Both the position numbers and the translations under genes were made by a program. Positions 21,189 to 41,740 of a DNA stretch of 42,841 nucleotides are shown in pieces; position 1 is the first letter of the stretch; each line of letters begins with the position of its first letter. The stretch is taken from positions 1 to 42,841 of IMG/VR virus record IMGVR_UViG_3300033388_004911. One strand, 5' to 3'. The notes beneath the pieces are model-generated. The model was given only the letters and a program-made list of their open reading frames with translations, made no database searches and had not been told where the DNA came from. This DNA is from a virus.

Positions 21189-21767
21189 TCACCCACACCC
21201 CACGCGTGATAGTTCTACATTCCTCTTCTCGAGTACGTCGACGAGTGCCTCGAACCGCTTTCGTTCGTGTCCCCATCGTTCGGGGGTTCGAATCTGCCGG
21301 CCATCGGTGAACCCGTCAGCATCGGCGGTACCTGACCAATCCATCCCATAGCAGTCTATCTTCCGGCAGCCCAGGTGGACTGCCAGTGCGATCGATACAT
21401 GCGCCGAGAACTTTGCCCAGCGGAGGTTGGTATCATTGAAGACAATCTCCCCCACTGGATAAAAGGGAAACTTCTCCAGCTCGCCCCAGAACTTATTACG
21501 GATAGCCTGGTGGATAGCCCGCTTGCAAACGATCTTCGGCCGGCAGGGCGGGTCACCCGCGGGGCCGCCTTGTTCGATTACCCATCGGAACGTATGCAGG
21601 TCCGCACACGACCAGTAGTCAACAGGATACCAGAGGACCACGCGATTGACCCCAATGACCACGTCGTAATCCTGGCCGGCCGTCACGAACATTTCGGACG
21701 ACGGGCCGGGGCAGACGACGGCCGCTGTCCTCTCGGCCGACACGCTCTGTCTGGGCTGATCCATCAT
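21189..21767 (-). CDS. DUF115-like Rossmann protein
   Basis: A 192-aa protein with AVVCPGPSSE near the N-terminus, a glycine/proline turn typical of DUF115-type proteins, then VVIGVNRVVLWYPVDYW, and a late LAVHLGCRKIDCYGMDWSG segment. Proteins of this kind are found in glycan-modifying and flagellin-glycosylation gene sets and resemble glycosyltransferases, but the reaction is not known. Two adjacent ATGs (21767 and 21764) overlap the upstream TGA. It closes the glycan block. Confidence 0.65.
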   Translation of the reverse strand: MMDQPRQSVSAERTAAVVCPGPSSEMFVTAGQDYDVVIGVNRVVLWYPVDYWSCADLHTFRWVIEQGGPAGDPPCRPKIVCKRAIHQAIRNKFWGELEKFPFYPVGEIVFNDTNLRWAKFSAHVSIALAVHLGCRKIDCYGMDWSGTADADGFTDGRQIRTPERWGHERKRFEALVDVLEKRNVELSRVGCG

Positions 21768-22324
21768 GGTGTTATTTCCAGGCCTTCCCACGGCTCCTGA
21801 AGCAGCGGGCCAATGCCCTGTACGCCAATCTTATTAGACCCTATGGCAGTCCAGGTTTCCCATCGTCGGCAGTAGGCCACTGACGAGAAGTCCTTCACGG
21901 CGCTATCGAACCCGACAGCCGTGTGCAGCTGGGCATCGTGGCAGATTACCACCCCGGCCACCGGGGCCAGCCGTCGGATCGTCGCCAGCCGTTCGCTCTG
22001 GGGTTCGTGGTCCACGAGGGCTATATCGCAGGGTTGGTCGAGTTCAGGCACGCTCGCCCAATCGTCGATCAGGCGCATCTCATGGCCATTGCCGCACAGC
22101 CCCTCGAATCGCTCGAGCCATTCGGCGTTGTTATCCAGCGTGAGCACCCGCCCGCCGATACCGGTAACCATCGCGTGTAGCAGTGGCGTGGAGTACTCGC
22201 CCGAGCCGCATTCAATGACAAACATCTGCTCGGGGAATGGCCGGGCTATTGCCGCCCGCATCACCGCCGCCGCCACGAATGGCAAGTGTGTGGCGAATTG
22301 GTCTATTGTACTTTCGTTCTTCAT
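21764..22324 (-). CDS. Class I AdoMet methyltransferase-like protein
   Basis: A 186-aa Rossmann-fold protein. The order FVIECGSGEYSTPLL (motif I), VLTLDNNAEWLERF (motif II acidic residue), CDIALVDHEPQSERL and GVVICHDAQ matches small-molecule or glycan methyltransferases of the Methyltransf_24 kind. The target could be a sugar made by its neighbours. Its ATG overlaps the upstream TGA (ATGA) and its TGA overlaps the next gene. Confidence 0.7.
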   Translation of the reverse strand: MKNESTIDQFATHLPFVAAAVMRAAIARPFPEQMFVIECGSGEYSTPLLHAMVTGIGGRVLTLDNNAEWLERFEGLCGNGHEMRLIDDWASVPELDQPCDIALVDHEPQSERLATIRRLAPVAGVVICHDAQLHTAVGFDSAVKDFSSVAYCRRWETWTAIGSNKIGVQGIGPLLQEPWEGLEITP

Positions 22325-24308: not shown

Positions 24309-25259
24309 TTACACGCTAATCGTATCCCAAACTCCGCGCAGGTTGAGGCCATGGAACTTCTCAACTCCGTGCCGTTCCATCAGTCGGTGGCATTCGGCCT
24401 TCTGCCAGGGCTCTTCGTTGAGTCCGATTTCGTTCAGCCACCCGGCGTCCCTGTAGGCGCCGAGGAACTCGGCGTCCATGGGTGTGACCTTCAGGCCCGT
24501 CTCGTCAACGGCCTGGTCGTACTTGGCATCGACGCGGGCAACAGGCTCTCGGCCTGGCCATCGGATGACCTCAATCATCTTGTAAAGCGTGTGCTTCCAC
24601 GACAGCCGTCCCCAATGGGCAAACTGCGCGTGGATCACCCCGCCGCCTGCCAGGCCTGATAGTGGCTGGTATGGCTTCCGGCCGCCAGATAGTGCACCCA
24701 TGGGAATGCGATGGTGGAAGTCATATTCTTCCCGCCCGCGCGTGGTGTAGTGGAGATCATCGCACATACCCACGACCGTCGAGAGCTGCTGCCGGCACCA
24801 CACTGAGTCATCGTCCCGGTATTCGTCCAGTGACCGCCAGGCGGGAATCATTGGTAGCTCGAGCACGCCGCCCGGCAGGACGTTACCTGCAAGCTGCCGG
24901 ACCTCGTCCATGAGGTTTGCCGTGAGGATCTCATCGGCGTCAATGATCGCCGCGTGGCTGGCCTTGAGGTGGCGGGCCGCATCGAGCATGACATTCCGAA
25001 AGGCCATTTCCCGCCAGAGTGCTGTTCGTTCCCGCAGGAGGATGACCCGGCCGCGGTACTCCGGTTCGCTGGCAATCGCCAGGACGATATCGGAGGTGTG
25101 GTCTTCGGACCGATGGTCCATCACGACTACACGATCGCACCACTGCAGGGCAACTCTCAGTGAGAGTCCGATGATCCACTCTTCATTGCGAACCATCATC
25201 ATGCCAACGATATTGAGCGGTGGATTGGTATTCGGTGGGTTCTTCAAGAGGTCGTTCAT
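24309..25259 (-). CDS. Family 2 glycosyltransferase
   Basis: A 316-aa GT2-type enzyme that would transfer a sugar from a nucleotide donor. The GT-A fold shows as NIVGMMMVRNEEWIIG, VVVMDHRSEDHTSDI and AAIIDADEIL, the last being the DxD metal site at about residue 108. The order and the NEEW spacing resemble WaaE/KdtX-like enzymes that act on lipopolysaccharide cores. The ATG overlaps the TGA of the pyruvyl transferase gene (ATGA). Confidence 0.82.
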   Translation of the reverse strand: MNDLLKNPPNTNPPLNIVGMMMVRNEEWIIGLSLRVALQWCDRVVVMDHRSEDHTSDIVLAIASEPEYRGRVILLRERTALWREMAFRNVMLDAARHLKASHAAIIDADEILTANLMDEVRQLAGNVLPGGVLELPMIPAWRSLDEYRDDDSVWCRQQLSTVVGMCDDLHYTTRGREEYDFHHRIPMGALSGGRKPYQPLSGLAGGGVIHAQFAHWGRLSWKHTLYKMIEVIRWPGREPVARVDAKYDQAVDETGLKVTPMDAEFLGAYRDAGWLNEIGLNEEPWQKAECHRLMERHGVEKFHGLNLRGVWDTISV

Positions 25260-26068
25260 TTCAGCTCCCCGGTCTTAAAGGGGCAGGCCTCAAACAAACC
25301 TATCCTCATCGCTTCTCTTCGGGCCCCCAATCTCTTGCGCCTCTCTTCGTACTCCTCGGTCATCCGGCCAATATCATCCAATGGCAGCGGATGCTTATCG
25401 TCCTCATTGCCAAGGCTAACGTCCAGTGGCATTCGCATCAGCCCGTGCCAAGCCAGGTCGTGATCGAGGAACTTCATCCCATCCCCGCCAACGTCCTCGC
25501 CCATTCGCACCGATCGATTGGGTATGCCATAGGCATCGGCCAGAATGCACCCGTGCAAGGAAGACGAGAAGACAAACTCGCACTCTGTGAGTTGCTCCAG
25601 AAAGTCATAAACGCCATTGAGCGGGCTAATGATCGTCAGGCGGTCATCATCCCCATACCACCACTGGGCCCGTTGGAAGTCCATGTAATGAGGAACGATA
25701 CCAATCCGACCCTCGGTCATATCGTTTCTATCGACGTACCCCGATACCAGCAACCCGGGATCCCCGTAAATCTCCGGCACAACCGCCCCGCAGGCCATCG
25801 CCACCGCTCGCGACAGTGGCCCGCGTACGCTTCGGATATCCGCATCCTCGCAAACCCCATCGCTGAACGACGCCAGCCCAGCGCCCCAGACGATGTTCTT
25901 TGCCATCGCATGGTTGAGAATCGACCCGCATCCCACGAGTTGTTTCTCCGGTTGCGGCCGGGCCCACACGCCCGGGCGGCCCGTGAGCTGCTCAATGAGA
26001 AACGACGTGATCCGATCGCCAACATTTGAGGAGATCGCCCAGAAACCATTGACTCCGATATTAGCCAT
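25256..26068 (-). CDS. Polysaccharide pyruvyl transferase family protein
   Basis: A 270-aa protein with the layout of the CsaB/WcaK-type family, which adds pyruvate ketals from phosphoenolpyruvate to sugars: SSNVGDRITSFLIEQ near the start, LVGCGSILNHA, NIVWGAGLAS, SVRGPLSRAV, IYGDPGLLVS, RIGIVPHYMD and EFVFSSSLHGCILADAYGIP at about 170. The conserved SLHG and the GDP/GL motifs are intact. It overlaps the upstream gene by eight bases and the downstream gene by four. Such an enzyme is rarely expected in phage structural regions. Confidence 0.85.
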   Translation of the reverse strand: MANIGVNGFWAISSNVGDRITSFLIEQLTGRPGVWARPQPEKQLVGCGSILNHAMAKNIVWGAGLASFSDGVCEDADIRSVRGPLSRAVAMACGAVVPEIYGDPGLLVSGYVDRNDMTEGRIGIVPHYMDFQRAQWWYGDDDRLTIISPLNGVYDFLEQLTECEFVFSSSLHGCILADAYGIPNRSVRMGEDVGGDGMKFLDHDLAWHGLMRMPLDVSLGNEDDKHPLPLDDIGRMTEEYEERRKRLGARREAMRIGLFEACPFKTGELK

Positions 26069-26825
26069 GGGTAGCCACCTCCGCCGCCGTGGCCGCTAGC
26101 GGTTCTGAGCCCGGCCACCCTGCCAGGCGGCGTTCGGCTACCTGACCCGCCGCGTAACGGGCCAACTCATGGGCCCTGTTCAGATACTCCGGTCGGTGTC
26201 CGCGTGGTTTCCCCTTGAGATGATACGACCAGTGTCGGTGTTCTTGCGTGAGGTCCGGCCGTTGCCAGAGAATGCCCCTCGCCTCGGCGACTTCCTTCAT
26301 TTCAACATCGCACTCGAAGTGGTAGTACCCTTGCCAGAACGGGCCGGAGCCGCCGTTCATCCGTCGGATGAACTCAGCTCCCATCCACGGTGACCCGCAG
26401 ATACGTTCAGCAGCCACGGTGCGGGTATCGGCCATGTAGCCCTGGCGATCGCCCGTGGGTTGCATCACGCCAAAGGTATCCGGGAAGTGCTCGAGGAACT
26501 CAGCGGCAATCTCCTGCGCTCGTTTGTTCGGATCGGGGAAGATATCATCCCCGCCGGTAACTACGATCGACGCCGGCCGGCCCGCGATACCCTGCCTATT
26601 AATGAGCTTCTCGCAGAGCCGATTGACCGCCCATGGATATCCATCATACACGGCGGGGAAGTCCACAAAGTCCGAACCGCACATCGTTTTCTCAGGATTG
26701 GTACCAATATCCATCAGGGCTGCCGTGCGGTACCCCATATCCCTCCACGCCTCAAAGCACTTCCGGGCCTTCTCAACGTCCGCTGTTGGTATCGCATACC
26801 ACACGTCAATATTCTGAGGGCTCAT
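26061..26825 (-). CDS. Glycosyltransferase-like protein, GT-A type
   Basis: A 254-aa protein. DVWYAIPTADVEKARKCFEA opens like a nucleotide-sugar-binding fold, and SIVVTGGDDIFPDPN at about residue 88 gives an acidic metal-site-like GGDD. Later EFIRRMNGGSGPFW and HFECDVEMKEVAE keep the pattern of glycosyltransferases that recognise a parent chain. No named family is certain. The ATG overlaps the upstream TGA (ATGA). Confidence 0.6.
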   Translation of the reverse strand: MSPQNIDVWYAIPTADVEKARKCFEAWRDMGYRTAALMDIGTNPEKTMCGSDFVDFPAVYDGYPWAVNRLCEKLINRQGIAGRPASIVVTGGDDIFPDPNKRAQEIAAEFLEHFPDTFGVMQPTGDRQGYMADTRTVAAERICGSPWMGAEFIRRMNGGSGPFWQGYYHFECDVEMKEVAEARGILWQRPDLTQEHRHWSYHLKGKPRGHRPEYLNRAHELARYAAGQVAERRLAGWPGSEPLAATAAEVATHG

Positions 26826-27583
26826 CCCACGCCCCCAGTCTTGTTTGAAGGGTCCATTGCTTTCGGTCCTTTCGGTTGTTTCGGTTCTTGATCCTGTCCA
26901 ACTCCTGCCGCCTCGGTAGCCGCTCTCACGGGCAAGCTCGACGCCGTATCCAAAGACACCCGCCCGCCGGCCAGGAGTAATGCGGTCTCCACCCTCAGCG
27001 TCCTTGACGCCTGCAGGTGTTTGATAACCGGTGTGATCCCGGGGTGTAGCTGCTGGAACGTATCGAAGATATACACGAACTCTGGTGGGAGTCGTTCGAC
27101 CTTCACGACGTCGGTCATTTCAGCCAGGGCGTCTTGCAAATTGGGCCCATCGGGTTTCCTCATCCGTCGGAGGTTCCACGTCCGCCAGTGTTCGGCGAGT
27201 GCCAAGCTGGCAGGGCAGGCCCTGAAGAGCAGCGTGCCCGTGAGCAGTTCGCGGTCCTTGAGCACGTATGCTGCAAAGTCGCAGGTTGTTTTGTTGAGCA
27301 GGTCCGCCATCGCCTGCCGGGGGTCTTCGGAAAACTCCGTATCGACATCCACGTACAGGATGGCCGCGTGCTCGCCGGTTTCGATTGCTTGGCGGAGTTG
27401 CCAGATAATCACATCCGTTTTGATATGCGTGTTGAGCGTCCACGCCCCACGGTCCAACGGTGAGAGGAGTTGCGGTTGTGCAACGCCGACGGCCCTCAGG
27501 CCAGCCACCCATTTCAGCCCGAGTTCATCGTAGCCCCTGGCCGTCTCGTATCCAACAACTTCAATTTGCTCTCGGGTGATCAT
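26822..27583 (-). CDS. Nucleotide-diphospho-sugar transferase-like protein
   Basis: A 253-aa protein with the GT-A pattern: EVVGYETARGYDELG, then WTLNTHIKTDVIIWQLRQA and AAILYVDVDTEFSEDP with a DVD metal site at about residue 80. This spacing is like that of transferases that read a diphospho-sugar. The last 50 residues are Pro/Lys/Gln-rich. The ATG at 27583 was chosen because the upstream extension would run into a non-coding leader. It is the first gene of the glycan block, 127 bp after the head genes. Confidence 0.65.
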   Translation of the reverse strand: MITREQIEVVGYETARGYDELGLKWVAGLRAVGVAQPQLLSPLDRGAWTLNTHIKTDVIIWQLRQAIETGEHAAILYVDVDTEFSEDPRQAMADLLNKTTCDFAAYVLKDRELLTGTLLFRACPASLALAEHWRTWNLRRMRKPDGPNLQDALAEMTDVVKVERLPPEFVYIFDTFQQLHPGITPVIKHLQASRTLRVETALLLAGGRVSLDTASSLPVRAATEAAGVGQDQEPKQPKGPKAMDPSNKTGGVG

Positions 27584-27710
27584 GGCAATTCCGCTTGGGG
27601 TCGTATCTAAAAAGCCCGGCCCGCGGCAGATGTGGGGAGCACCTGCCACGGACGGGGGCCTTTACCGAAAGCCGCTCGGCATCCATTCCGCCGGCCTTCG
27701 TTTCTCGTGC
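27584..27710 (-). other. Intergenic region between head and glycan blocks
   Basis: This 127-bp stretch separates the DUF2190 gene from the glycan block. On the minus strand it holds a GGCAGGTG/CATCTGCC stem (one G-T pair, 7-base loop) and further on a GC-rich run ending CGGGCTTTTTAG. The T-run suggests partial termination after the abundant head transcripts. A CCGAAAG-like run is not next to a start here. Confidence 0.4.
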
Positions 27711-30433: not shown

Positions 30434-32164
30434 TCAAACGCCCGAATATTCCAAAACCAGCTTGGCTATCGCATCCGACAGCCCATCATCGTCATCGGTG
30501 GATCCGTCGTCCTGATCATCGTCGTCTCCATTCTCGCCGTTAGGCCGGCGAACGGGCCGGGGCTCCGAGGGCGAGGTCTTCGCCGGGGCATTCACACCCG
30601 CAACGATCAGCCCGCGGTCGTTCAGTTCGTCCCGGTACTCTTCCCGTTCGTCAAGGATCTCGTCCAGGTCAACGCCCAGTTCGTTCGTGATCCTCTGCTG
30701 GCTGGTGGTTCCCATATCCAATTGGAGCTTCTTGCCCGCGCCTTGCTTGGCGGGATCGATCCAGGTCTTCGGGGTGAGTCCCCAGGACGCTTCCAGGTAT
30801 TCCGCTCGGAGTGCATCGTCAGTGAAGAACCCCGGTGCATCGAGTTTGCCTTCGAGCACCGCGACGGTGATGAACATTTCCCATATTGGCCGTAGGGCAA
30901 CGTTCACGATCATCATGGCAATCGGGTCATGCTCGGCCCACATATCCAGCAGGCCTTGCCTCTGCGAGGAGAAGTTGCCCTTGTCGTACAGGCGGGCGAC
31001 GGTCGCATAGTCCAGCCCACTACCGGCAGCGATCTGAGCAATCTGCTGGTCGGTGAACATCTTGTAGCCATTGCCGGGCCGCTTGGGGTCCAGCAGGTCA
31101 ACCGTCTCGCCAGGGCCACGCTTAATGACCATACCCGGTACAACTTCAATCTCCGTATTGTCCTTTGCCGGAGGGTCAACAGCCCCAATGCCACCCAGCG
31201 GATCATCAGGGCCCCGGGTCGGATCCTCAGTGACGGCCACCCCGATACACGATTCATATTTCTTAGCGATGAGTTCGAACTCATCGTACATGGCCAGATT
31301 GTGTTGGCGGATCAGCGCCGCGGTCATCGCCGAGATCGCCCCGGTCTGTCGGACCCGCGTGGGGTCCATGACGTCATAGATTTCATCCGCTGGGATCCGT
31401 TCGCTTTCCGATCGGTAAGTTTCCAAGGGGTGGGAGTTCGTGAACACCCAATAAGCTACCGGGGCGCCGAACTCATTAACCTCAACGCCCCCTCTGATTT
31501 CGTTATCGTTGTTGCTCGTTTTGCTCTTGTCGAGCTGCTCACGTTCGATGAGTTGGATAGTCAGGCCGACGTTGTTGGCGTGGGTGCGAATGACAGGTCT
31601 GACGAGCACCCCGCCCACGGCAAACACCTCGCCGCCGATGATCCGTTGTATGCCCAAAAAGTCCTTCCGGCCTTCGATATCGCAAGCCAGGGGGTCTCGT
31701 ATCCATCGTTTCCAGAGTGTGTTCGTCGCCTTGTTGTAGGGCTTATTGAGCTTGCCCGTGGTCAGGTCGCGTGCTCGGGCCCGGGCGGTAATGCCCGTGC
31801 CGATAACATATCTGACAAACCCGCTACGGGAGGACTTGCCTGACCAGTCGTCCCGGCAGGATTGTCTTGCTCGGGCGTTGACCCATGCCTCATCGGGAAT
31901 GATGGCCATATCAGCGGAGCCGCGTTTGGCCCGCCAGTCGGCGTTGGTGCGATCCCTCTTGGCAGCGGCATACGTGCTCAGTGCGACATCCCGGGCCGTT
32001 ACGGCTTTCAACCGTGCCCTTGTGGCCTTCTTCTGTGTGGCAATCTCGCTCCGCGCAATCTGAGCACGAGCAAGATTGTTCTTGGCCTCCACGAGCGCCG
32101 TCTTCTTACGGACCGCCCGGGCCTCGTTGTTCGATCCCGGAATGTTCACACCCAACAACTTCAC
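30434..32164 (-). CDS. Portal protein (lambda gpB family)
   Basis: A 576-aa portal protein, which forms the DNA entry ring at one head vertex. Family features are RDDWSGKSSRSGFVRYVIGTG (read in two parts), KRWIRDPLACDIEGRKDFLG, RIPADEIYDVMDPTRVRQTGAIS (two parts), MYDEFELIAKK, and GLDYATVARLYDKGNFSSQR (two parts). The N-terminal 100 residues are Lys/Arg/Ala-rich and the C-terminal 40 are Asp-rich and probably disordered. It starts at GTG 32164, with GGAG before it, and shares one base with the gpW stop. Confidence 0.88.
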   Translation of the reverse strand: MKLLGVNIPGSNNEARAVRKKTALVEAKNNLARAQIARSEIATQKKATRARLKAVTARDVALSTYAAAKRDRTNADWRAKRGSADMAIIPDEAWVNARARQSCRDDWSGKSSRSGFVRYVIGTGITARARARDLTTGKLNKPYNKATNTLWKRWIRDPLACDIEGRKDFLGIQRIIGGEVFAVGGVLVRPVIRTHANNVGLTIQLIEREQLDKSKTSNNDNEIRGGVEVNEFGAPVAYWVFTNSHPLETYRSESERIPADEIYDVMDPTRVRQTGAISAMTAALIRQHNLAMYDEFELIAKKYESCIGVAVTEDPTRGPDDPLGGIGAVDPPAKDNTEIEVVPGMVIKRGPGETVDLLDPKRPGNGYKMFTDQQIAQIAAGSGLDYATVARLYDKGNFSSQRQGLLDMWAEHDPIAMMIVNVALRPIWEMFITVAVLEGKLDAPGFFTDDALRAEYLEASWGLTPKTWIDPAKQGAGKKLQLDMGTTSQQRITNELGVDLDEILDEREEYRDELNDRGLIVAGVNAPAKTSPSEPRPVRRPNGENGDDDDQDDGSTDDDDGLSDAIAKLVLEYSGV

Positions 32165-33723: not shown

Positions 33724-33730
33724 GGTTGTT

Positions 33731-33761
33731 CCTTTCGAAAACCTCTAACCTCTAACCTCTA
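33731..33761 (-). repeat. 28-bp leader with TTAGAGG repeats, copy 1
   Basis: Reading on the minus strand, TAGAGGT occurs three times in tandem, followed by TTTTCGAAAGG and the start of the 35-aa gene. The 28-base block at 33731-33758 matches 35822-35849 except for a single base. The repeat also supplies the stop codon (TAG) of the upstream methyltransferase gene. Confidence 0.75.
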
Positions 33762-34394
33762 ACCTACGTCACGCCGCCCCGGCGTCACGAACAGCGCCCC
33801 AACCTTATTGCCCGCCGCGTGCTCGTTATGCCAATGTGTGAAACCATTGGTATAACACCCTGCCACCGCCTCGGCCAAGAACTCCCAATCGAGGACTTGC
33901 GGGCCGTACATATCGAAGGCAAACTCCCCATGATTGGGATTCTTCACATCGTGAATGACAATCACCGAATCAGGGGCAAGTCGCCCGATAACACCGAGTT
34001 CCTCGAGCACAGGCGTATCCGGCCAATGGGCGTCCAGGTAGAAGAGCACAGGTCGTTCGATAGGCGTTACCGTCCCATCGGGAACACCGTTGACTTCAAC
34101 GGGCCACTCTCTCAGAAAATTGTTCAATACGTCTTCCGACGGCCCGGACAGATTCGTAACGCCCAGGCCCATGAGCCGCGTCGCTGCTCGCCCGAAGTTC
34201 TCCATGTCCTTCTCAATGGTCACCACATTGAACGCCTGCGAGCAGATCACCCCGGCCATTGCTCCGGCCGTGTATCCCAGATAGGTCCCCGTTTCCACGA
34301 ACGTCCGTATCTCATATTCAATGATCAGTCGAATCACCGCCCGTCGGAGTATATGATCTCCGCCAAACCCAATCTCCGCCGCCAGCTCGCTCAC
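33759..34394 (-). CDS. Class I AdoMet methyltransferase-like protein
   Basis: A 211-aa Rossmann-fold protein. IRTFVETGTYLGYTAGA is motif I, NVVTIEKDMENFGRAA carries the acidic residue that binds ribose, VLFYLDAHWPD is motif IV-like and SVIVIHDVKNPNHG comes late. The layout fits small-molecule or sugar O-methyltransferases (Methyltransf_24). It starts at GTG 34394, overlapping the DUF3326 TGA, with GGACGGTGA upstream. It is the last gene of the SpeD-like/DUF3326 set. The substrate is unknown. Confidence 0.7.
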   Translation of the reverse strand: MSELAAEIGFGGDHILRRAVIRLIIEYEIRTFVETGTYLGYTAGAMAGVICSQAFNVVTIEKDMENFGRAATRLMGLGVTNLSGPSEDVLNNFLREWPVEVNGVPDGTVTPIERPVLFYLDAHWPDTPVLEELGVIGRLAPDSVIVIHDVKNPNHGEFAFDMYGPQVLDWEFLAEAVAGCYTNGFTHWHNEHAAGNKVGALFVTPGRRDVG

Positions 34395-35431
34395 AGCTCA
34401 CCGTCCTTTCCAATATCCGCCCGCACCGAAGGCAGATGCAATCCGGCCTTCATTGCCAGCAGTACTCCGGCAGCTTCCGGGTAGTTCTCAACGACTATAT
34501 CGCCGGGCTCCGGCCCGACGTTCAGGCAAGTAGTATTCTCCCGAACGTACACCACTGGTATTCCCGCTCGCCTGCAGGCCCAATGCGGCCGGCCGTTACA
34601 GCCAATGGGCGAGACCATCGCCGATATCTGATTGTAATAAACCCCCTCGCCCGGGCCCCGATGGTCTTGCTGGACTCTCGGGGCAGTATGCAAGCCCTTC
34701 AGTACGCAATGAAGATAGCCTGTGGACACAACCTCAGGAGCCATCCGAGGATTAACCTCTTCCTTCTGGCCAATGAAATACAGATCATCGTCTGAAGGAT
34801 CCACCGACTCCAAAGGAGCATGGGCAACAGGAATGTCCAGCCTGTCGGCGATCAGCCGGGACGCGATAGCCTCCACACCGCCCCAAGGATTCACACTGCC
34901 ATTCGCCCCGCCGTCCCGGAAGTAATCAATAGCCACCTTTCTCGGCACGTCGATGGGCGTATGGATAGCCAGAGCGTCCACCCGTCCGCACTCGCCGGAC
35001 CGGACAACCGCGACAAGGCTCTCCCACCCGCTCACTTCACCAACGGCACGGCCATCCTCGGAGAACGAGCCTACCATCACCAGCGGTTCCTTCAGTTCGA
35101 CGATATCGATTTCCGCGCCGAGCGTTACCCGGGCCGCGTTAACGGCATTGATAGTCAGGGCACTCACCGGCGGGTTGACCACAACAACAACGCGGTTCCG
35201 AACGATACGCCGCAGAGACGCCTTGCCCTCCAGGAACCTATCCAGAATGCTCCCCTCGACGTACAGCATGTTCGGTGTGAGTTCGCAGATATCGCTAGCG
35301 TTAACAACGTTCGGATGGACGATCAGTTGATCGCACGCCTGGGCTAGAAGTCGAGCGGCGGGCGTGGCGTCGCCGGCATGGCCGCCGATCGCACAGCCAA
35401 GGCCCGTTGGGATTATCATCACCGCAACCAT
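34391..35431 (-). CDS. DUF3326 family protein
   Basis: A 346-aa protein of the DUF3326 family, known from cyanobacteria and other bacteria but without an established reaction. The family signature is strong: MIIPTGLGCAIGGHAGDATP at the start, DQLIVHPNVVNASDI, MLYVEGSILDRFLEG, then DALAIHTPIDVP, NPWGGVEAIASRL and DIPVAHAPLESVDPSDDD. The late STGYLHCVLKGLHTAP segment also fits. It looks complete. AAGGGGG lies six bases before the ATG at 35431, which is 13 bases inside the SpeD-like gene, so the two are translated together. A phage copy is unexpected. Confidence 0.85.
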   Translation of the reverse strand: MVAVMIIPTGLGCAIGGHAGDATPAARLLAQACDQLIVHPNVVNASDICELTPNMLYVEGSILDRFLEGKASLRRIVRNRVVVVVNPPVSALTINAVNAARVTLGAEIDIVELKEPLVMVGSFSEDGRAVGEVSGWESLVAVVRSGECGRVDALAIHTPIDVPRKVAIDYFRDGGANGSVNPWGGVEAIASRLIADRLDIPVAHAPLESVDPSDDDLYFIGQKEEVNPRMAPEVVSTGYLHCVLKGLHTAPRVQQDHRGPGEGVYYNQISAMVSPIGCNGRPHWACRRAGIPVVYVRENTTCLNVGPEPGDIVVENYPEAAGVLLAMKAGLHLPSVRADIGKDGEL

Positions 35432-35811
35432 GATCGCCCCCTTTCGATGACAGTTGCCAATTCGATTCTACCCTGAAACCATTGCCCGCACAATGCACTC
35501 ACGGCGGGCCCGTCGAACTGTCCGCACGAGAAGACATTGATCATCGCAAGTCCGCCCTCCTCGATCGTATGAATAACAACCGTGGACTTCGATATGAACT
35601 GCACGGCCGATATCCCTTTCATATGAGGTTCCGCCTCCTCGTACCCTTCAGGGTCGCCCTCGTAGTCCCAGTAGTGAAGATCTTCCCTGCGGACACCAAT
35701 CATCTCGCAGAGCCTTGCCAGAAAGCCCTCAATGCTTTTCCGCGTGAAAAGCAACACACTACAATCAACAACGTCCACAACCAATTCCATCCCATAACTT
35801 GGCTGGCTCAC
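35419..35811 (-). CDS. speD: S-adenosylmethionine decarboxylase (SpeD) family proenzyme
   Basis: A 130-aa protein of the pyruvoyl-dependent SpeD family. The three key residues line up with the well-studied bacterial enzyme: Ser76, which would be cleaved and turned into the pyruvoyl group, His81 five residues later, and Cys96 fifteen after that (SKSTVVIHTIEE, NVFSCGQFD). Typical SpeD has ESH at the cleavage site; this has KST, so the substrate may differ. SpeD relatives that act on ornithine or arginine instead of AdoMet are known. The product would feed polyamine metabolism. It starts at GTG 35811, after the repeated 28-bp leader, and overlaps the DUF3326 gene. Confidence 0.82.
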   Translation of the reverse strand: MSQPSYGMELVVDVVDCSVLLFTRKSIEGFLARLCEMIGVRREDLHYWDYEGDPEGYEEAEPHMKGISAVQFISKSTVVIHTIEEGGLAMINVFSCGQFDGPAVSALCGQWFQGRIELATVIERGRSWLR

Positions 35812-35821
35812 ACTTCACCGT

Positions 35822-35849
35822 CCTTTCGAAAACCTGTAACCTCTAACCT
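35822..35849 (-). repeat. 28-bp leader with TTAGAGG repeats, copy 2
   Basis: This copy lies just before the SpeD-like gene. It matches 33731-33758 except for one base: TAGAGGT, then TACAGGT and TTTTCGAAAGG. The pair bracket the SpeD-like/DUF3326/methyltransferase genes, which could reflect a shared signal or a mobile unit. Confidence 0.75.
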
Positions 35850-35874
35850 GCCGTCCCTGGCCTGCCGTCCTTCC

Positions 35875-36264
35875 TCACCCGCCGTTCCTGCCACCCTTGC
35901 CCTTTGCCTTATCCTTCGCCTTGTCCGCCGCCCGGGCCACCTCTTCGTCCGTCATCATTACGACAATCTGAAAGTTCGTCTCGCACGACAGGCACTTCAT
36001 ATACAGAGTGTTCCCGGCGATCCGTGTCCTCTGAAAGAGGCCCGGGTGTCCGCCCGCGGTGATTCCACACACATCGCACTTGGCGGCGTCCATAGCTATC
36101 GCCCGCCGGATCCGCAGGCAGTACTTTGGTTTGGCGGGTTTCTGATTGGCCGCTGCTGCTTCGCCAGCGCCCGCCAGGGCGCCAATACCCAGCCCGCCGG
36201 GCTGGCCGTTGGTATCTCCCAGTTCTCGCTTGTCAATCATCGTCGTTGTTCGATCCTTCTTCAC
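35875..36264 (-). CDS. Small zinc-ribbon protein
   Basis: A 129-aa protein with two knuckles, CDVCGITAGG at about residue 63 and CLSCETNF at about residue 90, spaced as in a zinc ribbon. The N-terminal 45 residues are Gly/Ala-rich and the C-terminus is Lys/Ala/Gly-rich (AADKAKDKAKGKGG), so it probably binds nucleic acid. It starts at GTG 36264, with GGAAAGG seven bases away; an ATG at 36240 is an alternative. It follows the nuclease-like gene and uses the same repeated leader as the other Zn protein. Confidence 0.6.
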   Translation of the reverse strand: MKKDRTTTMIDKRELGDTNGQPGGLGIGALAGAGEAAAANQKPAKPKYCLRIRRAIAMDAAKCDVCGITAGGHPGLFQRTRIAGNTLYMKCLSCETNFQIVVMMTDEEVARAADKAKDKAKGKGGRNGG

Positions 36265-37416: not shown

Positions 37417-39399
37417 TCAAAAAGTCCGGGGCTTCCATGGATCTCGTTTCTTTGTCTTTGGCTTCGGTGGCTGCTGGGGCTGGTTCGGGTCCGGCAGTGC
37501 TCGCAACTGCAGCAGTTCCGCCGCGAACACATTGCCGACTTCGCAGTCCCAATAGTGATTAGCCCGATAGCCCGGCCGGACTTTCCACGAGCTCTTGGGC
37601 CGGCGGGCGGACCGCCCGGTCTTTCCGCGTTTGCGATCGATAGTCTTGTGTTCGCTGCACAGTTGCTTCAGGTAGTCGTCCGACACGTCTGATGGCAGGT
37701 GCATGTAGCCAGGGCCGGGCTCGTCCACGCTCATTAGCAGGGCCGCCCAGTCCTTGAAGTATTGCGGGTGTCGCGTGTAGTGGCGGATAGGCGTCTTGTA
37801 AACGCGTCCGGTCCGCGGGTCCTTCTTCCGATCGGACGCCCGCCAGGGGGGGCCGGCGTCTGACGACGCGCCCTTGACGCCTCGGATATCCACGTCCCGC
37901 CATTGGTCGATCAGCGCGTACACCTTCGCCGCCTCGTCCCCGGTATCGATGAGCGTCAGTTGTATCCGCCCCTTGACCTTCGGGCTGCCGGCCCGCGAGA
38001 AGGTCACCGTGCGGATGTACCTGAAAAGTTCCGGCAGGGTCATTATTTCCCGATAGTCAAGCACCCACGACTCCAGGCCGAACCCCCAGCCTTTGACAGC
38101 CACGTACCACGAGTGCTTCTGCCAGTCGATGAACGCCGTGATGCACTGCACGCGAGCGTCCATGATCCCCGTGACGAGTCCGGTTTCGAGGTCCGCGGTG
38201 GCCTTTGGCAGGACGCCCGCGTGCCGTCTCATCTCGTTCTCTGAGGTTTCCGTTTCCTTTTCCTCGAAGACAACGCCCAGTTCGTTATTCAAAAAATCCT
38301 GAAGGGCAATAGCCCCGGTGCTGTTGGCCTTGAGGAAGGCCGCTGCGAGTTGGCTGAGCGTAACGAACGGGCTATACATTGCCGAGATATGAAAGCCCGC
38401 ATGCCGGCCGGGCTGGCTGGCGTGCCCGGTGATCTGTCCATCGGTGTCAACGTCCTCGCCCAGGCGGGCCCACACGCCTTGCTTGACTGAAGAATTTTTC
38501 CTCTCGTCGTCCCATTGGTGGTCGCACTCGTCGCATTGGTACCACGCCAGGTTATCCCGTTCGATAGTCGCCCGGGGTGCGGAGTGCCCGTCGGCCTTCC
38601 GTGGCCAGCGGACGTTCGCCCATATTAGCACCTGGTACACCCCGCAGTGGGGGCAGGGCACATAGTACGATCGCTGGTCGGACTCTTCGTAGGAAACACT
38701 GATCGCCCCTGAGGGGACTGTTGGCGACGATACCCGGATGGACTTGCACCCGGTGGTATTTCGATACGTTCGCATTCGCTTGTCGGTCAGTGATATCGGG
38801 TCGACGTCCTGGCCGATGTACGGGGGATACTTGTCAACTTCGTCCAGGTAGACTTCGCGGCACGGCCGGCGTGAGAGTGACGCCGCCGAGTTCGACCAGC
38901 CGAAGTTCAGATCGCCACCGGCCAGGTCGTACCCTTCCTTCTTGAGTGACGCCAGGCCCAGGGGCGTGAGTCTCATTACCCTGTCGCATTCTTCAAAGAC
39001 CGACCGGAGATCTCCACCGGCCACTTCGCGGGCGTCGGGTTCTGTTGGCAAGACGAGCAGCCGGGGGCCGGGCCGCTGGCAGACCCCACTCAAAATACAC
39101 CCATGGAGGAACGTCGACTTGCCCAGTTGCGTCCCTGATACTAACGTAATCGTCTCGATGTACGGATCGTCGACAGCATCGAACGGCCCGCGGAGGTAGG
39201 GCGTCATGCCAAGATCGATCCGTCCCGCCAGTGCGGCGGTGTCTTCCGGCAATCTCATATACCGACTCACCCACTCCGCCGTGGGAATGATCGGATCCGA
39301 TTCCCACGCCCGGGCCTCCTCGGGCGTCCAGTCCAATAGCGCCACCCCCATGGAGTCGACGTACCCACTCTCAGATTTCCAAAGCCCGTCAATCATCAT
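37417..39399 (-). CDS. terL: Terminase large subunit (GpA-like)
   Basis: A 660-aa packaging motor and nuclease of the lambda GpA type. The ATPase part has a Walker A SGTQLGKST (88-96), a Walker B VYLDEVDK (183-190) and the coupling region RVSSPTVPSG near 225. A zinc-ribbon-like insert carries CPHC (249-252) and CDEC (289-292). The nuclease part opens with CITAFIDWQ and continues with LTLIDTGDEA and a late helical DDYLKQLCSEHK. The C-terminus is basic and Pro-rich. It starts at ATG 39399, with GGAGG before it and the radical SAM stop overlapping it. It cuts DNA at cos and fills the head. Confidence 0.92.
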   Translation of the reverse strand: MMIDGLWKSESGYVDSMGVALLDWTPEEARAWESDPIIPTAEWVSRYMRLPEDTAALAGRIDLGMTPYLRGPFDAVDDPYIETITLVSGTQLGKSTFLHGCILSGVCQRPGPRLLVLPTEPDAREVAGGDLRSVFEECDRVMRLTPLGLASLKKEGYDLAGGDLNFGWSNSAASLSRRPCREVYLDEVDKYPPYIGQDVDPISLTDKRMRTYRNTTGCKSIRVSSPTVPSGAISVSYEESDQRSYYVPCPHCGVYQVLIWANVRWPRKADGHSAPRATIERDNLAWYQCDECDHQWDDERKNSSVKQGVWARLGEDVDTDGQITGHASQPGRHAGFHISAMYSPFVTLSQLAAAFLKANSTGAIALQDFLNNELGVVFEEKETETSENEMRRHAGVLPKATADLETGLVTGIMDARVQCITAFIDWQKHSWYVAVKGWGFGLESWVLDYREIMTLPELFRYIRTVTFSRAGSPKVKGRIQLTLIDTGDEAAKVYALIDQWRDVDIRGVKGASSDAGPPWRASDRKKDPRTGRVYKTPIRHYTRHPQYFKDWAALLMSVDEPGPGYMHLPSDVSDDYLKQLCSEHKTIDRKRGKTGRSARRPKSSWKVRPGYRANHYWDCEVGNVFAAELLQLRALPDPNQPQQPPKPKTKKRDPWKPRTF

Positions 39400-40286
39400 T
39401 CGCCCTCCTCGCCGAACAGCGTCTTGTCCTTCGGCGCCTCGGGCTTCTCGGTGAATAGCGGGCGGGGCGTGAGATATGGGCGTATGAACGGCCGAAGGGC
39501 TCGCGTCCAATCCGCCGGTTCCTCTCGTCGCGTGGCTTGGTCAGGCTGGTAGAACATCGGGAATGGTTGGACCCCGAGCGACACCACCCATTCAAGGCGC
39601 TTCACTGCCTCACTGATTGTATCGCCATCATGCGCCACCAGGACATAGCACGCAAGTCTCCGACGAGCAGTCCCATCACACCATCCCCCAGCTTCGCGTA
39701 GCAAGCGCAGTGCGGCCTCCACGTGCGGCTTGCTGGACGGCCGGTCATATGCCGTATAGGCGATGTCAAGTCGCATATCGGCGAGGGCCCGTGCAAACCA
39801 TGGGCTTACATGTCGGGCTTCAAGCCCACCCGTAAATCGGGCTCGGGCCCTTTGCCCATTCATCATTTCAAGGACGGCCTCAATATGCCCACGCGGACAG
39901 GCCAAGAGGTTGTTATCGCACACATCGTGCCCGTCCTTAATCAGCAGCACACGGATCCGACCTTCCCTCTTGGGCACAAGACACGATTTGCATTTCTGGG
40001 GACAGCCTCGAGACGTCATCAGGTAGCCGGGTTTCATATAGAGGCCTGGCGTGAACTCGCCGCCGGCATCCCCAAGGGCCGGACCGCCTGTCTTCACTCG
40101 GTCATAGAATCGTCCCCACGAGCTGGCCAGACGACGGGCCAGAGGGATATCCCAGGTGAAGGTGACCGACACGTGTACCGCGTCCGCCTTGGGCCTCATG
40201 GCGGCAAACGGCGGCGGGCCGACAAACGCCATCGCATCATCCGGCGTGGCTGCCGTCCTTCGCGGGAATACCCGAATGATCTTCAT
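39396..40286 (-). CDS. Radical SAM-like protein
   Basis: A 296-aa protein with a radical SAM cluster motif, SRGCPQKCKSC (CxxxCxxC, about residue 95), that would bind a 4Fe-4S cluster and cleave AdoMet. Later KDGHDVCDNNLLACP, ARFTGGLEARHVSPWFARAL and YTAYDRP follow the plan of phage and bacterial radical SAM proteins with an internal Cys pair. The reaction is unknown. It overlaps the methyltransferase by ATGA and the large terminase by TGATG, so all three are translated in concert. Modifying a base or a protein are both possible. I chose ATG 40286; the frame is open upstream to 40610, but only inside the methyltransferase gene. Confidence 0.75.
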   Translation of the reverse strand: MKIIRVFPRRTAATPDDAMAFVGPPPFAAMRPKADAVHVSVTFTWDIPLARRLASSWGRFYDRVKTGGPALGDAGGEFTPGLYMKPGYLMTSRGCPQKCKSCLVPKREGRIRVLLIKDGHDVCDNNLLACPRGHIEAVLEMMNGQRARARFTGGLEARHVSPWFARALADMRLDIAYTAYDRPSSKPHVEAALRLLREAGGWCDGTARRRLACYVLVAHDGDTISEAVKRLEWVVSLGVQPFPMFYQPDQATRREEPADWTRALRPFIRPYLTPRPLFTEKPEAPKDKTLFGEEGE

Positions 40287-41740
40287 ACCGGTCCCTCCTT
40301 CGCAAACAGCGGCGCCGCATCCGGCAGGCTCGCCTTCGTCCACGTCGTAGGATTGGCCGCAGCGGCGATCCGGTCTTCCGCCTGCAGGGTATAGTCCGCG
40401 TTCAGTTCGATCCCCAGGTATTCCCTGCCGAGTGACTGAGCCACAACGGCCGACGTCCCGGCGCCCATGAACGGATCGAACACCGTAGCCGGCACGGTTT
40501 CCCACGGCCAGTCCACCGCCCGTCGCCTGACGCGCTCCCACCATCGGTCCTCGTGCCATCGGCTCCGCCAGTGGTGCGGATAGTCCCTCTCGTATTGGGC
40601 GGTGTAACACTCACACCCCGGCCGCCAGCCCCCTGTTCGTACGTAGTAGGATTGCCCGCTTCCGTCCGTGACACCCGACAGGCCGCCAGCGCCAACACTA
40701 GTCGTCCTCGCGCCCTTGGCCTGATCGCCAACATGGTCATTCCAGGACTTGCCCGTCGTTCCGCCACCACGCTCAACCACCCTCACCCAGCCCGCCCCGC
40801 ACTCCGGACAGCAGCCCTTGCCCGACGTCCCCGCCAGCACGCACGGCTCCACGAGCTTCCGCGGGAAGGTGGCAAAGTGAGCTCCGGGATAGCTCTCGGT
40901 CACAATGCTCCAGACCGATCGCTTGTTCCGCCTGGCCACCAGTGCGTTGACCGCCCCCGAGAATGAAGCCTTCTGCTTTGATCGGGCCGTATGCACATAT
41001 CCCACCTGTCCCTTCTCCCGGCCCTCGCGATGCACGCTCCCATGCCCACCGTCGCCCGTGCTCGTATCCCACCCGTCGGGCGTCTTGTACCTGCTCTTCA
41101 AATCCCCCTGAGTCTCATCGCCCGTATACCCCCAGCCAACGCCCGTCCCAAGGGCCGCCTTCGGGTTCACCCCGTCGCCCCGCGCGTGTGCGTTCCCATT
41201 GGTCGGCTCGCTGATCGCCACCTGGTCATAGTAATACCGGGGCTTCTTCGCCAGCAGAAATATCGACTCGTGCGATTTCGTACACCTGTCCCCGCAGCTC
41301 TCCGGCATGGGATTGGGCTTATGCCAGATGATCTCCTGCCGCAAGTACCACCCATCCGCCCGCAACGCGAACGCCAACATCCAAGGAACCCCCACGAGGT
41401 CCTTTTGCTTCAGGCCAGCCGGAATGTCAGGACAGGGAACGCTCACATGTGCCCTGTCGCGGCGGAACGAATTGTAAGCCCTACTCCCCGCCGCGTACGA
41501 ATCCCCAATGTTCAACCACACTGTCCCGTCGTCCCTGAGCTTCGGCCACAGGCTTCGGAACACACCAACCATCTTCTCCACCCATTCCTCCGGCGTCTTC
41601 TCGAGCCCGAGCTGGCCCTCGACGCCATAGTCCCGCAGCGCCCAGTACGGCGGACTCGTCACGACCATATGCACCGACCCGTCGGGGATCCTCGCCCACA
41701 CTTCCGGGTCCATCACACTGCCAACAATAATGCCCATCAT
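40283..41740 (-). CDS. DNA adenine-N6 or cytosine-N4 methyltransferase (beta class)
   Basis: A 485-aa enzyme that methylates an amino group of A or C in DNA using AdoMet. Motif order is the beta class: motif IV VTSPPYWALRDYG near the start (28-32 is TSPPY) and motif I DPFMGAGTSAVVAQSLG (422-429 is DPFMGAGT) near the end. TSPPY is most often cytosine-N4, although some adenine enzymes share it. A CCPECGAGW knuckle at about residue 305 suggests a zinc site in the target-recognition part. It starts at ATG 41740 or 41737, both after AAAGGGC. It would protect phage DNA. It is coupled to the radical SAM gene. Confidence 0.88.
   Translation of the reverse strand: MMGIIVGSVMDPEVWARIPDGSVHMVVTSPPYWALRDYGVEGQLGLEKTPEEWVEKMVGVFRSLWPKLRDDGTVWLNIGDSYAAGSRAYNSFRRDRAHVSVPCPDIPAGLKQKDLVGVPWMLAFALRADGWYLRQEIIWHKPNPMPESCGDRCTKSHESIFLLAKKPRYYYDQVAISEPTNGNAHARGDGVNPKAALGTGVGWGYTGDETQGDLKSRYKTPDGWDTSTGDGGHGSVHREGREKGQVGYVHTARSKQKASFSGAVNALVARRNKRSVWSIVTESYPGAHFATFPRKLVEPCVLAGTSGKGCCPECGAGWVRVVERGGGTTGKSWNDHVGDQAKGARTTSVGAGGLSGVTDGSGQSYYVRTGGWRPGCECYTAQYERDYPHHWRSRWHEDRWWERVRRRAVDWPWETVPATVFDPFMGAGTSAVVAQSLGREYLGIELNADYTLQAEDRIAAAANPTTWTKASLPDAAPLFAKEGPV

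Follow-up and report, generated by a model that had tools for sequence, protein, structure and literature searches.

A phage SpeD-like decarboxylase and its DUF3326 neighbour as a candidate transferable amine-making module

Introduction

Several described systems resemble, in part, the gene pair studied here. Phages are known to carry polyamine enzymes, and the SpeD of phage phiN3 is a reported working S-adenosylmethionine (AdoMet) decarboxylase that restores spermidine (PMC9992855). SpeD homologues of the SpeDC and SpeDA types occur in bacteria, archaea and phages, and four residues (Gln, Thr, Phe and Tyr) are reported to be diagnostic of the SpeDC type, the pyruvoyl ornithine decarboxylases (PMC10407285). 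In the NspC pathway, two genes follow a similar logic, as carboxyspermidine or carboxynorspermidine dehydrogenase provides a carboxylated intermediate that is then decarboxylated. Here we analyse a 42,841-base virus sequence from IMG/VR (record IMGVR_UViG_3300033388_004911, the window), in which a gene for a SpeD-like protein overlaps a gene for a DUF3326 protein, the latter starting 13 nucleotides (nt) inside the former. DUF3326 is a widespread family for which we know of no reaction. The two open reading frames (ORFs) are:

35419-35811, minus strand: SpeD-like ORF, 130 amino acids, GTG start; pyruvoyl decarboxylase proenzyme of a DUF3326-linked clade, with cleavage predicted before Ser76
34391-35431, minus strand: DUF3326 ORF, 346 amino acids, ATG start; short phage-type protein of the NPWGGVEA subfamily, the predicted partner enzyme

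DUF3326 genes and their decarboxylase partners

Single-sequence scans of viral contigs with either whole protein found nothing, as did tblastn searches with both proteins in isolated phages and with DUF3326 in plasmids, and a query built from a C-terminal sub-sequence of DUF3326 failed to retrieve relatives. A sub-sequence query around NPWGGVEA recovered 20 viral loci, and the alignment of these loci, used as a query, yielded 56 viral loci together with 268 genomic loci, of which the best 80 were used. The resulting non-redundant set holds 132 DUF3326 proteins, 52 of them viral (the studied phage included) and 80 genomic, the latter from Planctomycetota, Rhodospirillales and other Pseudomonadota, Chloroflexota, Nitrospirota, Omnitrophota, Patescibacteria, archaea and further groups.

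A SpeD of the type found in the phage (a linked SpeD) lies close to DUF3326 in 69 of the 132 loci. Outside the studied phage its position was measured at 68 loci, and at 67 of them it lies upstream; for 61 of these 67 the distance between the two genes falls within -350 to +60 nt, usually amounting to a few bases or an overlap. At other loci an unrelated decarboxylase takes its place: an NspC-like pyridoxal phosphate (PLP) decarboxylase of the alanine-racemase fold (PF00278/PF02784; best NCBIfam match nspC) at 20 genomic loci, a phosphatidylserine-decarboxylase-like (PSD-like) protein at 8 viral loci, and a PLP decarboxylase of the Orn/Lys/Arg type, directly downstream, at 3 planctomycete loci. 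For three of these four partner families, the wider group is one whose substrates are ornithine, lysine, arginine or carboxypolyamines. On a DUF3326 tree, which is a quick tree built without bootstrap, the partner label changes about 20 times, and at least four changes are forced for the PLP partner. Because unrelated genes of like activity have repeatedly replaced one another, DUF3326 appears to need the activity and not a particular protein, and the gene neighbourhoods provide strong evidence that it is tied to amino-acid decarboxylation whatever the fold of the decarboxylase.

The association also holds in a control set of 148 Nitrospirota genomes, where a single genome has DUF3326 and the same genome is the only one with the linked SpeD type (177 bits); all other SpeDs of the set score at most 69 bits. 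An earlier interpretation of the phage DNA made from its letters only (the sequence-only reading) had placed SpeD and DUF3326 jointly in a small-molecule amine pathway, and had named beforehand a lack of co-occurrence elsewhere as an argument against such a pathway. The two families clearly do co-occur, and their adjacency in other genomes, together with the replacement of SpeD by unrelated decarboxylases, favours the proposal.

Whole genomes carrying DUF3326 are informative about the NspC-like partner. Matches above 250 bits are present in 14 of 40 such genomes, each just upstream of the DUF3326 gene, and one genome (G036) has two DUF3326 copies, one beside a SpeD and one beside an NspC-like gene. 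The NspC-like partners score 251-305 bits against TIGR01047, whose cut-off is 409, and are thus related to NspC but not equivalogs of it. A second difference from the NspC pathway is that the dehydrogenase goes undetected in most of these genomes: in 9 of the 14 we found no saccharopine-dehydrogenase-type match above ~33 bits, a weak absence in metagenome-assembled genomes. Since this match is missing, DUF3326 could fill the place of carboxyspermidine dehydrogenase in those genomes. Canonical SpeD and SpeE are present in at least 11 of the 40 genomes, and therefore the pair is not the housekeeping spermidine route there.

The linked SpeD proteins

The phage SpeD-like protein belongs to the AdoMet_dc family (PF02675; E-value 1.6e-11, 45 bits against a cut-off of 25) and has the SpeD fold. 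Its AlphaFold2 model (mean predicted local distance difference test score, pLDDT, 94) finds its best PDB matches in the AdoMet decarboxylases of T. maritima and A. aeolicus, with template-modelling (TM) scores of 0.68-0.79, and superimposes on the T. maritima enzyme with TM scores of 0.71-0.79. In an alignment with the T. maritima enzyme, the predicted pyruvoyl-forming Ser76 and the catalytic residues His81 and Cys96 correspond to Ser63, His68 and Cys83. Among 70 linked SpeDs, the Ser and the His are present in all 70 and the Cys in 69. These residues had been reported as intact by the sequence-only reading, which was also right that KST stands in place of ESH at the cleavage site: the motif is S-K-S-T. 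Because the linked clade has TSN, TSS or TST at this site, KST is a local variant and not a sign of decay.

The same reading had linked the protein to AdoMet, and here the comparison points elsewhere. All 13 canonical references combine ESH with HTWPE or HSWPE, whereas the phage protein has KST and HTIEE; it scores 32 bits against TIGR03330 (cut-off 75.65), and it lacks both the Trp-Pro-Glu after His and the Glu-Ser-His of a bona fide class 1b AdoMet decarboxylase. As the linked SpeDs as a clade lack Trp-Pro-Glu, AdoMet is an unlikely substrate for them, judging from these motifs.

Phylogenetically, the linked SpeDs form one clade (support 98/96) that is sister (95/81) to a SpeDC-like Nitrospirota clade and lies apart from the AdoMet decarboxylases. 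The sister clade carries Gln, Thr, His-Phe and Ala-Tyr, a pattern that fits the four-residue SpeDC signature, with the positions assigned by us from the Nitrospirota sequences. The linked clade thus shares with SpeDC and SpeDA the fold, the Ser/His/Cys set, the loss of Trp-Pro-Glu and the nearest position in the tree, and with SpeDC, on our placement of the signature, also Gln71, Thr75 and mostly Tyr (Tyr/Phe90). It differs in being a separate, supported clade, known here from sequence, in having no Phe after His, and in having DUF3326 as a neighbour. The phage protein departs further from the signature so placed, with Gln71 followed by Lys, Thr and Met at the four positions. The linked SpeDs add an undescribed subfamily to the SpeD proteins.

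The DUF3326 protein

The phage DUF3326 ORF matches PF11805 with an E-value of 1.7e-74 and 251 bits (cut-off 25) over model positions 2-336 of 337, in agreement with its earlier description as a full DUF3326 protein. Across the 132 proteins, 42 positions are at least 97% conserved, among them D21, H39, N41, N44, E50, Y57, E187, H204, E233 and K245. The phage protein looks like an intact enzyme, as it keeps 41 of these 42 near-invariant positions, the exception being N49, which is Cys. No other Pfam family was matched consistently by DUF3326 members, and searches of PDB sequences gave no match with the family alignment and no significant match with one long-form member. Comparison of the model with the PDB nominally suggested a carbamoyltransferase or a HAD phosphatase; these matches, all of low TM score and high root-mean-square deviation, are uninformative and were set aside.

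DUF3326 is named in only two papers of the literature searched, which did not extend to subscription papers, and the novelty of the present findings is relative to that coverage. The cyanobacterial proteins belong to the same Pfam family (a Synechococcus elongatus sequence matched as a control), but they have been described beside the ferredoxin gene fed3 and DUF650, with no decarboxylase (PMC4284462). As a separate observation, short DUF3326 genes without an adjacent decarboxylase make up a clade centred on planctomycetes, which comprises loci L026-L041 and related genomic loci.

Genomic and phage context

The pair is embedded in several kinds of neighbourhood. In Rhodospirillales, an operon encodes DUF350, a small probable lipoprotein, a glutathionylspermidine-synthase-like ligase, the SpeD-like protein and DUF3326 (L061, L084, L085, L087, L090 and L100), a neighbourhood that favours the amine-making module proposed below. 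For envelope-stress systems, similar operons that combine a glutathionylspermidine-synthetase-like ligase with an AdoMet decarboxylase have been described (PMC11237479). At 6 of the 80 genomic loci (L024, L049, L052, L060, L092 and L099), the Septu genes PtuA and PtuB immediately precede the genes for the decarboxylase and DUF3326, the decarboxylase being either SpeD-like or NspC-like. No such cluster was seen in the viral DUF3326 loci, and a PADLOC search with the three studied phage proteins gave no match. PtuA, PtuB, decarboxylase and DUF3326 may represent a four-gene, defence-linked system; to our knowledge, Septu systems described so far include neither the decarboxylase nor DUF3326.

Several unrelated phages have terminase, portal or other head genes close to the pair, and the portal or terminase genes concerned are of different families. 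When the largest neighbours are counted, such loci are a minority of the phage loci, and we give little weight to a packaging location as a rule.

A proposed pathway and its alternatives

The reading that we prefer, with a probability of about 0.6, is that the SpeD-like protein and DUF3326 form a transferable two-enzyme module for an amine of the polyamine type, which phages share with cellular lineages. The SpeD-like proenzyme would cleave itself before Ser76 to generate a pyruvoyl group, and the substrate that it decarboxylates would be either a basic L-amino acid or a polyamine that bears an amino acid, rather than AdoMet. DUF3326 would carry out the neighbouring step, more likely building the carboxylated substrate and otherwise using the amine. 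The replacement of SpeD by unrelated decarboxylases beside DUF3326 makes it very probable that DUF3326 is part of an amine-making pathway not yet described. Gene context makes supply of the carboxylated substrate the simplest model, and by analogy the role of DUF3326 would be that of carboxyspermidine dehydrogenase, which supplies carboxyspermidine decarboxylase. More tentatively, and at less than even odds, we propose that DUF3326 builds a carboxypolyamine-like substrate that any of the four unrelated decarboxylases can finish, a new route in phages, bacteria and archaea. In the studied phage, the pair is probably made late, since it sits between the terminase and portal genes, and it may raise amine levels during DNA packaging. 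Previously described phage-borne polyamine enzymes share with this locus a SpeD homologue (PMC9992855), which here is coupled to DUF3326; the finding suggests that phages carry a pathway, beyond a single polyamine gene. The decarboxylase coupling of one DUF3326 subfamily also offers a concrete and cheaply testable hypothesis about the chemistry of the family.

Several observations weigh against this module. There is no adjacent partner at 30 of the 132 DUF3326 loci, 24 of which form one clade with full support, and 2 viral loci of this non-redundant set have an ornithine-cyclodeaminase/alanine-dehydrogenase-like gene instead. Viral DUF3326 genes that follow such a gene, with no decarboxylase found nearby, are those of L131, L152 and L154. 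The genomic loci were chosen for their likeness to the phage DUF3326, so that the proportions are not census values, and the genomes are mostly metagenome-assembled, which makes absences from them weak. The studied SpeD-like protein itself is atypical, having Lys75 and Met90 at positions that are Thr in 63 of 70 and Tyr or Phe in 67 of 70 linked SpeDs. The phiN3 SpeD also lacks Trp-Pro-Glu and is nevertheless reported as active (PMC9992855), so AdoMet could still be the substrate. Finally, the DUF3326 model (pLDDT 80, predicted TM score 0.81) has no convincing fold match in the PDB (best TM score 0.31), and the fold gives no chemistry.

Instead, the SpeD-like protein could be a pyruvoyl enzyme of a known kind, an ornithine or arginine decarboxylase that supplies phage replication and packaging with putrescine or agmatine, and DUF3326 would convert or consume the product (for example agmatine to putrescine, or a diamine to a triamine). 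Phage SpeD homologues with such activities are known (PMC9992855), the linked SpeDs are sister to the SpeDC type and most of them keep three of its four signature residues as we place them, and ornithine-cyclodeaminase-like genes can adjoin DUF3326. We nevertheless consider this explanation rather unlikely: the Phe that follows His in the signature as we place it is missing from the linked SpeDs, the commonest PLP replacement resembles NspC and not ornithine decarboxylase, and canonical polyamine genes are already present in many of the genomes that carry the pair. Another possibility is a true but diverged AdoMet decarboxylase acting with DUF3326 as an unrecognised aminopropyl transferase, the pair replacing SpeD and SpeE. 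The AdoMet decarboxylase fold, the catalytic residues and the phiN3 precedent speak for this idea. It is very improbable, as the same DUF3326 subfamily also has PLP and PSD-like decarboxylases for neighbours, enzymes not known to use AdoMet as a substrate, and the linked SpeDs form a clade apart from the AdoMet decarboxylases.

A different kind of explanation places the pair in phage-host conflict, where the amine would modify tRNA or DNA or control a nuclease, either protecting the phage or serving Septu-like cellular systems. Septu cleaves tRNA-Tyr (PMC13096335), and PtuA and PtuB precede decarboxylases of two folds in the six genomic loci noted above. These are only 6 of 80, however, and the cluster was not seen in phage loci; the pair also occurs beside the glutathionylspermidine-synthase-like operons and unrelated genes, and some phage copies lie among head and packaging genes, where counter-defence is less expected. 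A role in conflict thus seems improbable, and the amine-making module remains our preferred account.

The phage locus and its other features

Three further features accompany the pair in the window:

33759-34394, minus strand: methyltransferase-like ORF, 211 amino acids, GTG start; a passenger outside the conserved module
35821-35849, minus strand: 29-nt leader with an AAAGGA ribosome-binding sequence, before SpeD (repeat analysis)
33730-33758, minus strand: second leader copy, before an ORF for a 35-residue membrane peptide (repeat analysis)

The methyltransferase-like ORF overlaps the DUF3326 ORF by 4 nt, so that three ORFs overlap end to start on the minus strand, and the Pfam-matched flanking genes encode the terminase large subunit (37417-39510) and the portal (30434-32164). 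The three overlapping genes and their position inside a packaging-head region were correctly recognised by the sequence-only reading; the first ORF of the interval it described (35875-36264) has no family match. The reading also made the methyltransferase a member of the joint pathway, which we reject. The ORF falls below the curated cut-off for Methyltransf_24 (E-value 1e-4, 23.6 against 26.3 bits) and is thus not assigned to a class I methyltransferase family, and tblastn detected no homologue of it in 152 DUF3326 loci.

A 28-bp leader had been described as bracketing the three genes. Two copies of a 29-nt repeat, 97% identical, do literally flank them, and the search, which allowed three mismatches, found these two copies only. 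Read on the minus strand, the repeat (...TTTCGAAAGGA) ends in AAAGGA, a few bases ahead of the SpeD start; the other copy precedes the separate membrane-peptide ORF (33723-33616), and a shorter sequence, GAAAGGACGGTGA, lies ahead of both the SpeD and the methyltransferase starts. We read the repeat and the shorter sequence as duplicated ribosome-binding leaders with little bearing on function, and the repeat was accordingly discarded as an operon bracket or regulatory element.

Elsewhere in the window, the minus strand downstream of the capsid gene (24309-27649) has matches to a glycosyltransferase (PF13704) and a polysaccharide pyruvyl transferase (PF04230), together with weak sugar-transferase matches. 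A minus-strand ORF at 39396-40610 without a Pfam match contains a CPQKCKSC motif that resembles the one in radical SAM enzymes. Lastly, the minus-strand ORF at 21764-22324 is a second weak Methyltransf_24-like protein, with a faint likeness to the methyltransferase-like ORF that follows DUF3326.

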